Shown here one piece after another: positions 56,197 to 58,781 of a stretch of DNA of 64,000 nucleotides. How positions within the stretch are numbered: position 1 is the stretch's first letter; every line of letters starts with the position of its first letter. This DNA comes from Archangium gephyra (lineage in GTDB: Bacteria; Myxococcota; Myxococcia; Myxococcales; Myxococcaceae): the NCBI RefSeq assembly GCF_001027285.1, contig NZ_CP011509.1:7216501-7280500 (forward strand). Reading direction: 5' to 3'. The translations under genes were made by a program, and so were the position numbers. The notes below the pieces were generated by a model that saw nothing but the letters and a program-made list of their open reading frames with translations, did not search any database and was not told the DNA's origin.

Positions 56197-57867
56197 ATGC
56201 CCGAGGGGAATGCTGGACAGGCATGGGAGGAGGTTCCCGGACCCCGTTTCGCTCCGGGGACGGAGGTGGCGGGTTTCACCCTCGAGGGGACGATCGCCTC
56301 TGGCAGTTTCGGCACGGTGTACCGCGCGAGGCGGAGCGGACGGCCCTACGCCATCAAGCTGGTGCTCATCAACCCGCGAGGCGACCGGGAGGCAGCCGCA
56401 TTGCGTCTGATGCGGCATCCCAACGTGGTGTCCTTCCACGGGTATGGCCTCTGGCCCGAGGAGGAGCCACGCTTCCTTGTCCTGGCCCTGGAGCTCGTCG
56501 AGGGCCTCACGCTCGACGCCTGGGCAGCTCGGGAGAATCCCTCCGCGCTCGAGCTGGTGATGCGGGTGTTGCTGCCTTTCGCGCTCACCCTGGCGGACGT
56601 GCATGCCTCGGGCGTGGTGCACCGGGACATCAAGGAAGCCAACATCGTCATGCGCGAGGCGGACGGCCAACCGGTGCTGGTGGACTTCGGCGCGGCGGGC
56701 CTCAAGGAGGGGGCGCTCCGTCTGACCCTGCGGCTGCCGCCGGGCACCGCGGAGTACCGCAGCCCCGACGCGTTGCGCTTCGCCCGGCAGTGGGAGGGCG
56801 AGCCCTACCCCTTCTCACCGGGAGATGACCTGTGGGCCCTGGGCGTCGTCCTCTACGTCCTGCTGACACGCACGCTTCCATTCGGAGACCGGAGCAACCC
56901 GGGGTTGAACCGGGCCATCCTCGAAGAGACGCCGCCGGCCCCGCATGAGCTCAACCCGCGCGTGCCCCTGGCCTTGAGCGACTTGTGCATGGGGATGCTG
57001 GAGAAGGAGCTCGAGGATCGCTACCCGGATGCGAAGGCGCTCGCGGAGGACCTGGTTGAGCAGTGCACCCAGGCGGACGCCTCCTGGCGCGTGCCGCTGT
57101 TCCCTGGCACCAAGCAAGACAAGAGCCCTGCTTCCACTCCAGCTCTGCCCGGCCGTCGGCTTCCTGGATGGTGGGCTGCCGGACTTGCCCTCGGCGCGGT
57201 CCTCCTGTTGTGCGTCCCCTGGGGTACCCCACGCACGGCGTCATCTCCCTCCCCCGCGACGCCACCGGGCACATCTGGCCGAGAAGTCGTGGCCCCTGCC
57301 ACGACGGTGGAAGGTGCGTCTGGCGCGGCACTCCCGCCCGCGCCCGTCGCCGCCGCGACGAACAGCGAGGAGCCTTCGATGAAGAAGTCCAAGACGATCC
57401 GAACCCTGGTGGCCGCCGGCTGTGTTGCCAGCTCCGGATGCGTGAGCGGGCCGAGCCCGCGTCCCCCGCCCCCCCCAGCGCAGTGCCCGCCTGGAGCTGA
57501 CGCAACGCACTCGCGCTTCGGCCTTCCTTCCTGGGACGCCCACGGCGTGAGCCTGATCCCTGTTCACGAGCGCCCCAGGGTAGTGCCCGTGCGCGACGGG
57601 CAAGCGGTTCGCGGCGAGATCCTCGGCGCCTGGCAAAAGCTCCCCGATGGGACGAGCTTCGACGGCCACCTCTACCTGGGGGACGAGCGTGTCTATGGCC
57701 GTTTCACCGCCGCCCACCTCCCCAGTGGCGAGACCGTGCCGGTGTGCCTGGAGGTGATGACCATCGGACAAACCGCTCGCGGCAGGCCGGTTGAGCCCGG
57801 CACTACGAGCACTCAGGCGCTCATCGTTTCTTCTTTGAGCGTCCAGGCCGTACAGCGTTTCAAGTAG
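56197..57867 (+). CDS. Membrane Ser/Thr protein kinase, with an internal lipoprotein-like segment
   Basis: 556 residues. Kinase domain about residues 27-290: glycine loop IASGSFGTVY, AIK, HRDIKEAN, DFGAAG, and the end of the catalytic domain at DRYPDA. A membrane helix follows (about 325-345, WWAAGLALGAVLLLCVPW), then a Pro/Thr/Ala linker to about 394. The final 162 residues begin with MKKSKTIRTLVAAGCVASSGC, which is a full lipoprotein signal with a lipobox in the middle of the protein; either a second start is used at 57379 or a fused gene. It resembles myxobacterial kinases linked to DUF2381 genes. The next gene is 20 bases away. Confidence 0.85.
   Translation: MPEGNAGQAWEEVPGPRFAPGTEVAGFTLEGTIASGSFGTVYRARRSGRPYAIKLVLINPRGDREAAALRLMRHPNVVSFHGYGLWPEEEPRFLVLALELVEGLTLDAWAARENPSALELVMRVLLPFALTLADVHASGVVHRDIKEANIVMREADGQPVLVDFGAAGLKEGALRLTLRLPPGTAEYRSPDALRFARQWEGEPYPFSPGDDLWALGVVLYVLLTRTLPFGDRSNPGLNRAILEETPPAPHELNPRVPLALSDLCMGMLEKELEDRYPDAKALAEDLVEQCTQADASWRVPLFPGTKQDKSPASTPALPGRRLPGWWAAGLALGAVLLLCVPWGTPRTASSPSPATPPGTSGREVVAPATTVEGASGAALPPAPVAAATNSEEPSMKKSKTIRTLVAAGCVASSGCVSGPSPRPPPPPAQCPPGADATHSRFGLPSWDAHGVSLIPVHERPRVVPVRDGQAVRGEILGAWQKLPDGTSFDGHLYLGDERVYGRFTAAHLPSGETVPVCLEVMTIGQTARGRPVEPGTTSTQALIVSSLSVQAVQRFK
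57379..57867 (+). CDS. Possible internal in-frame gene: lipoprotein (162 residues)
   Basis: In-frame ATG at 57379 inside the kinase frame, preceded by GAGGAG 7 bases upstream (AGCGAGGAGCCTTCG). The product would be MKKSKTIRTLVAAGCVASSGC then a Pro-rich stretch and a compact domain with FGLPSWDAHGVSLIPVHERP. The signal and lipobox are complete, which is unusual in the middle of a kinase. I prefer it as an independent start used in addition to, or instead of, the fusion. It shares the kinase stop. Confidence 0.4.
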   Translation: MKKSKTIRTLVAAGCVASSGCVSGPSPRPPPPPAQCPPGADATHSRFGLPSWDAHGVSLIPVHERPRVVPVRDGQAVRGEILGAWQKLPDGTSFDGHLYLGDERVYGRFTAAHLPSGETVPVCLEVMTIGQTARGRPVEPGTTSTQALIVSSLSVQAVQRFK

Positions 57868-57887: not shown

Positions 57888-58781
57888 ATGCTCCCTGCAT
57901 CCCCCTCCGTCCTGGTACTGGTGCTTCTGCAAGCCCCCGCTGAACCAGAACCAGCGCCGCCAGCCACCTCCTGCGCCGACGTGCAGCGCATCGAGTTGTC
58001 ACGCGTGTCCACGGCGAGCTTCGAGGTGTGTGTCAGTCCTGGTCTCATGACGGGCTTCCGCTTCGACGCACCTGTCATCGTGGACGTACAGGACGACGTG
58101 CGTTTCGAGGAGGTGGTACGAGCTCGTCAACTCCTCACGCTGGTGCCACCTCCAGACATGACTCCAGGGGAGCGGATACGTCTCACGGTGCGCTTCGAGG
58201 AAGGCTCGACCCGGCAGAGCGCCACGTTCGTGCTGGTGGGGCACCGCGGGCGCGCAGCCCGGCAGGTGGAGGTGTACCACGACAAACGGACCCGGGAATC
58301 CTACCAGCAGGAGATAGAGCAGGAGCGCGCGAAGAACCAGCAACTGCGCGAGGAGAACGAGGCCCTCCACGCCCAACTCGCTCAGTCTGGTGGGCTTCGT
58401 GGCCTTTTTCTTTCGGAGGCATTGGGAAACACCGGCATCCCAGCGCAGGAACTGAACACCGTCGCCATGCAGCACTCGGACCACGCACTCTCGATGTCGA
58501 GAGTCGTCATCTACCGCTCCAACAATAGCGTGGCGGTGGAGGTGCTCCTGCTCAACGCCGGCACCACACCCTGGATCGCGGCCGGGGCCTCCTTGGTGAG
58601 CACCACAGGGGAGAGGCTGGAGGTGCGCATCGGGCAAGTCGGCCCCATCCCGCCCCAGGAGGCCCGGCGAGTGTTCGTCGAAGCAGATGCGGCGAGTGGT
58701 GTTCCACGCGGAGAGGTGACGCTTCGTCTGTGGGGGGCGGATGGCCGCGAAATCACCCTCCCCCAGGTGACGTTCCCGTAG
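57888..58781 (+). CDS. DUF2381-type exported protein
   Basis: 297 residues. A short hydrophobic leader (SVLVLVLLQAPAEP) and an Ig-like beta domain (VVDVQDDVRFEEVVRAR and RLTVRFEEGSTRQSATFVLVG are consistent). A coiled coil of about 30 residues, with heptads in YQQEIEQERAKNQQLREEN, then a second beta domain (AVEVLLLNAGTTPWIAAGA, RLEVRIGQVGPIPPQEARR, GEVTLRLWGADG). This architecture matches the paralogous DUF2381 (TIGR02268) family of myxobacteria, whose genes sit next to Ser/Thr kinases as here. The role is not known; the coiled coil suggests dimerisation or contact with the kinase's extracytoplasmic half. AGAGG lies 6 bases before the ATG. Confidence 0.75.
   Translation: MLPASPSVLVLVLLQAPAEPEPAPPATSCADVQRIELSRVSTASFEVCVSPGLMTGFRFDAPVIVDVQDDVRFEEVVRARQLLTLVPPPDMTPGERIRLTVRFEEGSTRQSATFVLVGHRGRAARQVEVYHDKRTRESYQQEIEQERAKNQQLREENEALHAQLAQSGGLRGLFLSEALGNTGIPAQELNTVAMQHSDHALSMSRVVIYRSNNSVAVEVLLLNAGTTPWIAAGASLVSTTGERLEVRIGQVGPIPPQEARRVFVEADAASGVPRGEVTLRLWGADGREITLPQVTFP

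Follow-up and report, generated by a model that had tools for sequence, protein, structure and literature searches.

A conserved candidate lipoprotein gene nested in frame within a Ser/Thr kinase gene of Archangium gephyra, with a VirB10-like predicted fold

CheA-S is produced from an in-frame internal start in the gene of a signalling kinase, CheA-L, and this product is not known to be exported or lipidated. The short form of SpaO also arises from an internal start, and the C-terminal domain (CTD) of VirB10, a component of type IV secretion systems, bears antenna helices. SpaO-L and SpaO-short, which are a full-length protein and its C-terminal part, co-assemble in type III secretion, according to the available part of the source (PMC13059759). 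Two-polypeptide phage endolysins are encoded by in-frame overlapping ORFs with a common stop codon, as stated in the excerpt available of another report (PMC9430671). In the outer-membrane core of type IV secretion, VirB10 reaches from the cytoplasm to the outer membrane, the lipoprotein VirB7 provides the anchor and the third component is VirB9, which makes the core complete, as outlined in the accessible portion of a further source (PMC12624023).

The locus described here lies on the forward strand of the window, which is the whole 64,000-nucleotide stretch of Archangium gephyra DNA that was analysed. It contains a fused Ser/Thr kinase ORF of 556 amino acids (56197-57867, with the stop codon at 57865-57867), which from N- to C-terminus is laid out as a cytoplasmic kinase, a transmembrane (TM) helix, a Pro/Ala-rich linker and a VirB10-CTD-like domain. 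The kinase domain matches PF00069 at residues 28-282 (56278-57042, E 2.7e-30), and the predicted TM helix (57160-57216, Kyte-Doolittle window 1.91) is a hydrophobic 19-residue segment that begins 73 residues ahead of the internal Met395. This methionine is encoded by an ATG at 57379, which opens in the kinase frame a candidate nested lipoprotein gene of 162 amino acids (57379-57867) and is preceded by a Shine-Dalgarno-like GAGGAG (57367-57372) with a 6-nt spacer. The leader from this ATG reads MKKSKTIRTLVAAGCVASSGC, with the predicted signal peptide MKKSKTIRTLVAAGCVASSG at 57379-57438 and the predicted lipid-attachment Cys at 57439-57441, and is followed by a mature domain of 142 residues, for which Pfam and NCBIfam gave no match at E ≤1. 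A sequence-only reading of this DNA had noted the ATG, the GAGGAG upstream and a full lipoprotein leader after the kinase TM helix, and all three are confirmed at these positions. A gene for a DUF2381/TIGR02268 protein (57888-58781) begins 20 nt past the shared stop.

The best reading of the locus is that a nested gene, conserved and in frame, lies within the kinase ORF, has a control region of its own and would be co-expressed with the DUF2381 gene. From the conservation described below, the nested gene itself is very probably real, and for the whole statement, which comprises a nested lipoprotein gene, its own control signals, VirB10/VirB9-like folds and a ring mechanism, our rough estimate of probability is 0.72. 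The arrangement resembles CheA-S/CheA-L in having an in-frame internal start in a signalling kinase, and differs from CheA-S in that the nested product is predicted to be exported and lipidated. An in-frame nested start and a common stop codon are shared with the two-polypeptide phage endolysins, as the excerpt describes them (PMC9430671), but those are lysis enzymes and have no part in membrane signalling. As for SpaO-L and SpaO-short, a full-length product and its C-terminal part are proposed to assemble together; SpaO, however, forms a cytosolic sorting platform, with no export or lipid signal mentioned in the available part of that source (PMC13059759).

The lipoprotein half is widespread in the host's taxonomic family. 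In its own genome of 12.49 Mb it has 29 matches at E ≤10, of which 21 are at E ≤1e-3; it was matched in 16 of 59 genomes (own included). A scan of named genomes with one protein gave no relatives. A 16-sequence profile finds it in 64 of the 96 genomes of the family (own included) and in eight of 26 genera, the listed matches being mostly in long open frames. A search of 145 genomes of the host's order likewise gives 64 with the lipoprotein half, and those listed all belong to the family. These 64 genomes hold at least 1,063 profile matches, and five of them have at least 39 each.

From the listed matches, which were not sampled randomly and include paralogues that are not independent, 226 loci were taken; 218 ORFs match the lipoprotein profile and 203 of these have a kinase match in the same ORF, both counts including places fetched twice. 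Removal of identical tails left 184 distinct fused loci, with 126 representatives at 80% identity. The 15 ORFs without a same-frame kinase comprise six standalone-looking ones, four in which the kinase is broken or undetected and five that either run off the end of a contig or cannot be classed clearly (L057, L079, L080, L145, and L149). In L071, L078, L083, and L084 the kinase half is stopped, frameshifted or not found and the lipoprotein frame is intact and constrained, with dN/dS of 0.27-0.57 to relatives, sequencing or assembly errors being possible in such split loci. The frameshifted L014, which was entered as fused though its kinase motif is partly in another frame, gives dN/dS of 0.36 and 0.84 against distant relatives. 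All six standalone-looking homologues (L012, L015, L016, L017, L018, and L019) belong to the genome of the window; L012, L015, and L017 look like ordinary lipoproteins, and L012 and L017 each follow an ORF with a weak DUF2381 match (E 1.5e-4 and 3.6e-4). A DUF2381 match lies downstream in 168 of the 181 fused loci with enough flanking sequence.

The kinase is of Hanks type, with a kinase fold and the catalytic Lys in 118/118, the HRD Asp in 124/124 and the DFG Asp in 124/124 of those representatives that have a letter at the respective column. Although the linker is rich in indels, almost every locus keeps the kinase frame open across it, and these catalytic residues are intact; both facts speak for a fusion protein that is in use. 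Codons are oddly uniform at alignment columns 160-162, just before column 163 with the DFG Asp, where for example Val is GTG in 100 of 100.

The nested part has the marks of a bacterial lipoprotein, namely a K/R-containing n-region, a hydrophobic core and a lipobox with its Cys. The lipobox Cys is present in 214 of the 215 ORFs of the family that cover the column, which is more than chance would give, and two further Cys columns are likewise conserved (217/217 and 218/218). Of the 184 distinct fused loci, 183 retain the lipobox Cys, all of them with A, G or S at position -1. A PROSITE-like lipobox pattern has its end at this Cys in 142 loci out of 184 and at each of the other two Cys in none of the 184. 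The n-region has K or R in all 165 loci with an aligned start. Start and Cys are 20 residues apart in the window but at least 30 apart in 125 of the 165, which is long for a lipoprotein signal. L143 is the only fused locus in which the lipobox Cys is replaced, by Phe. From these signals the nested product is predicted to be lipidated.

A start codon in the kinase frame is conserved ahead of the hydrophobic core. Alignment column 780 holds V, M or L in 165 of the 184 fused loci, with GTG in 114, ATG in 36, TTG in 12 and CTC in three as aligned; the three CTC loci have GTG or ATG one codon upstream, and after these one-codon register shifts the counts are GTG 116, ATG 37 and TTG 12. Of the other 19 loci, 15 fall into two misaligned groups, one of seven and one of eight, and four stand alone; as judged by eye, these 19 too have in-frame NTG codons nearby. 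On a FastTree tree of 117 representatives the register-shifted start codon shows 14 first-base and no third-base changes, a zero that is favoured by the fact that control columns were not re-registered. Unshifted, column 780, which then includes other residues from a subfamily that is off by one, shows 14 first-base and three third-base changes. None of 68 other V/M/L/I-rich columns has zero third-base changes. The start column is exceptional but not unique, because the Met/Leu column 283 shows 17 first-base changes and one third-base change and the kinase Val column 162 is also 100% GTG. Uniform Val codons alone were accordingly rejected as proof of a start, column 162 being just as uniform; family-wide, GTG accounts for 64% of the codons for Val and TTG for 11% of those for Leu.

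Shine-Dalgarno-like pairing is at -6.2 kcal/mol at the conserved start versus -3.5 at other in-frame NTG codons, and reaches -4 kcal/mol or lower in 90% versus 40%. It shows no enrichment over synonymous shuffles (-6.22 versus -6.75 shuffled), the pairing following from the residues encoded there, which are often acidic or Lys.

The linker upstream of the start carries signals at the nucleotide level. When excess synonymous identity is ranked over 597 ten-column windows of the alignment, the top nine all lie at columns 754-775, upstream of column 780. A bipartite promoter-like element is found in the linker, with the family form GAA-N-T-N-GCG and, 27 nt later, GAANNTG; in the window its blocks are GAA-N-T-N-G (57283-57289) and GAANNTG (57310-57316), and this copy scores eight of nine key bases. 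In 124 representatives the T at +4 is kept in 99%, the A at +28 in 98% and the T at +32 in 98% (122/124), the last at the third base of codons that variously encode Ala, Gly, Val, Ser, Ile, and Thr. The Glu at column 735 is encoded by GAA in 114 of 115 cases, versus 20% of Glu codons overall. With a cut-off of eight of nine key bases, which was chosen after the motif was seen, the element occurs in 159 of the 168 loci that are followed by DUF2381, in 3 of the 13 that are not and in all three whose flank is too short; of 920 synonymously shuffled linkers, 205 have it. This association with DUF2381 is confounded by descent, as eight of the ten loci without both form one subclade. Those eight (L041, L043, L056, L185, L197, L199, L200, and L201), which have neither a downstream DUF2381 match nor the linker element, have a lipobox and a GTG candidate.

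If the element is read as a promoter, its GAANNT would retain the two key bases of a -10 box, A at -11 and T at -7, and TNGCGC stands 17 nt upstream of it. A scan for the sigma-70 consensus gave no sites. In the own genome the strict bipartite motif has nine matches, six in linkers of the kinase-lipoprotein family and three elsewhere, and its backward control has three in all (two forward, one reverse). The motif was therefore rejected as a general promoter, because the matches outside linkers equal the total of the backward control.

Between the element and the ribosome site lies a candidate RNA hairpin of 6 bp, CGTCGC-cgcc-GCGACG (57345-57360). Five hairpin pairs, with G-U allowed, are all kept in 82 of 122 loci, and no other offset between -9 and +12 keeps them in more than 12 of 122; the loops are mostly of 4 nt (51/120) or 7 nt (59/120). 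In an alignment of 34 sequences four of the six pairs are changed on both sides, which 15 of 500 shuffles reach, and eight cells are double-changed versus 2.2 in shuffles, a number that none of 500 reaches; 91.6% of the cells pair versus 87.9% shuffled. Slid by +3, the hairpin has seven double-changed cells, but the pairing falls to 49.5%. With the 34-sequence alignment RNAalifold predicts the hairpin, with 117 representatives it gives no structure, and in the window the advantage of the region over shuffles in folding is only moderate (z -1.3 and -1.4).

It is conceivable that the full-length kinase is the sole product of the ORF, in which case the hydrophobic segment and the Cys would be structural parts of it and the linker element would serve as promoter of DUF2381 alone. 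An element that tracks the downstream DUF2381, a Shine-Dalgarno sequence no better than in codon-shuffled DNA and mostly long n-regions are all in keeping with this explanation, which nevertheless leaves aside a start column with first-base but hardly any third-base changes and a lipobox pattern that is absent at the other two Cys. The likeness of three standalone homologues to ordinary lipoproteins and the retention of the lipoprotein frame where the kinase is broken or missing also speak against it, and we regard it as unlikely.

The codon conservation of the linker could instead reflect gene conversion or recombination among paralogues, of which there are up to dozens per genome, and not a regulatory element. 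Homogenisation would conserve all positions alike, whereas third bases are fixed here under changing residues, as for the T at +32 under six amino acids, and the hairpin pairs covary; this explanation is distinctly improbable.

Lgt and signal peptidase II could also act at the internal lipobox of the full-length kinase and so release a lipoprotein, with no internal initiation. The nearly invariant lipobox within the full-length frame would suit such a release, but a Kyte-Doolittle segment of at least 1.6, the predicted TM helix, precedes the lipobox in 161 of the 184 fused loci and would put it on the wrong side of the membrane. The release also leaves the start-codon column and the DNA-level constraint unexplained, and very little probability is assigned to it.

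A recent fusion of kinase and lipoprotein genes through stop-codon loss, which the sequence-only reading had offered as one of two possibilities and which the existence of standalone homologues might favour, is hardly credible and was rejected on distribution, in-frame fusion being the rule (203/218 ORFs, with the lipoprotein half in 64/96 family genomes and eight genera) and splits exceptional. The stop between the halves that it had proposed to look for in orthologues is absent from the loci examined, save for the derived-looking splits L071, L078, L083, and L084. The other possibility, a gene within a gene with an internal start, gains support from the conserved start column, the lipobox and the nucleotide-level signals upstream. 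The observation named as counting against it, continuous orthologues without ATG and lipobox, was made in none of the 184 loci; one of them, L143, has lost the Cys.

The nested lipoprotein gene and its DUF2381 neighbour very likely encode VirB10-CTD-type and VirB9-type folds, respectively, as judged from predicted models. The model of the mature lipoprotein domain (pLDDT 92, pTM 0.86) contains a beta domain (57511-57858, pLDDT 92) that by Foldseek and VIA resembles the VirB10 CTD. The first 18 Foldseek entries are all from type IV secretion (best E 4.7e-4), and some of these chains we take to be of the VirB10 class. With VIA, 12 entries reach Z 8.0-10.0 with rmsd 2.5-2.9 over 98-108 residues and two more reach 6.3-6.4, the next, unrelated one having 2.6. 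The predicted model thus shows the beta-barrel fold of the VirB10/TrbI CTD; it has one short helix only and, unlike VirB10, no antenna helices.

The DUF2381 gene of the window belongs to TIGR02268 (190.8 bits versus a cut-off of 76.15), a Myxococcus xanthus paralogous family whose entry gives no function, and its VirB9-like predicted fold is described here. A VirB9-like DUF2381 had been expected from the lipoprotein fold, and this was stated before the DUF2381 fold was compared. Its model is less certain (pLDDT 82, pTM 0.47). The first eight Foldseek entries are type IV secretion chains (best E 2.9e-8), which we take to be of the VirB9 class, and the N-terminal domain aligns with VirB9 at VIA Z 11.0-11.7 and rmsd 2.0-2.6, unrelated folds reaching at most 6.9. 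The C-terminal half is uninformative on fold, because unrelated folds reach Z 8.9 there, and two-domain alignments with VirB9 have rmsd 16-26. By its predicted model DUF2381 has a VirB9/CagX fold.

Sequence comparison gives weak or no support for kinship to VirB10 and VirB9. The PF03743 model (TrbI/VirB10) finds nothing over cut-off in the lipoprotein, PF03524 (CagX/VirB9) nothing in DUF2381, and neither finds anything over cut-off in the own genome, which differs in this from type IV secretion. With hhalign, the lipoprotein aligns to six VirB10 sequences at P 0.004 and 8% probability, covering the motif LPxGTxxxG...RV...P-G, and DUF2381 to VirB9 at P 0.11, crossed pairs giving P 0.41-0.52. 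A PDB sequence search with the lipoprotein profile returned unrelated weak matches only (best E 0.56), and PHROGs gave nothing for the lipoprotein and one match for DUF2381 (E 0.27).

The locus can thus be compared with the outer-membrane core of type IV secretion by the predicted folds of the lipoprotein and its neighbour. The kinase ORF follows the VirB10 layout of cytoplasmic part, TM helix, linker and CTD, with a kinase in place of the cytoplasmic tail. The core also has a lipoprotein as anchor, which is VirB7 in the accessible portion of the source (PMC12624023), but in the locus the predicted lipid anchor sits on the VirB10-like domain itself.

From these patterns we infer promoter function, internal initiation, a ring and signalling. 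A transcript begun at the linker element and translated from 57379 would yield the lipoprotein together with DUF2381, and the full-length ORF would yield a membrane kinase bearing the same C-terminal domain. In the mechanism that we favour, VirB9-like and lipid-anchored VirB10-CTD-like subunits would form a small ring or patch at the outer membrane. A few of its subunits would be kinase-linked copies that, like VirB10, cross the periplasm to insert there, and through one helix the cytoplasmic kinase could thus respond to outer-membrane events. The amount of nested product would then determine how many subunits are kinase-free and how many kinase-linked. This mechanism is tentative, with somewhat less than an even chance of being correct. 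The sequence-only reading had equated the lipoprotein with the sensor half of the kinase; that it is the C-terminal half holds, and the term sensor is refined to a predicted VirB10-CTD-like domain. The free decoy or ligand domain proposed there is possible, and an anchored subunit beside a VirB9-like partner fits better.

A literature search on DUF2381 or TIGR02268 found no papers, and among the papers listed by other searches none was, by title and abstract opening, on lipoproteins nested in kinases or on VirB10-like kinases, though print may still hold some. To our knowledge, it is not known what most myxobacterial eukaryotic-like kinases sense. When one study compared genomes for eukaryotic-like kinases, two myxobacteria came out with the highest numbers (PMC2887360). 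Myxobacteria may have turned the type IV outer-membrane core into a large paralogous family of trans-envelope receptors, with VirB10-like kinases, nested lipid-anchored, kinase-free copies that each have a promoter, hairpin and start codon of their own within the kinase gene, and a VirB9-like partner, all arranged in rings, in which nested expression would set the number of kinases per ring; we put this forward as a proposal a little more likely to fail than to hold. If the nested-gene reading of the locus is right, a family with at least 1,063 matches in 64 genomes would mostly hide one unannotated lipoprotein gene per kinase gene, and DUF2381/TIGR02268 would gain a structural role. Gene nesting in frame, with control signals written through codon choice, would then have a large example, and the core of a secretion machine would have been reused for signalling.
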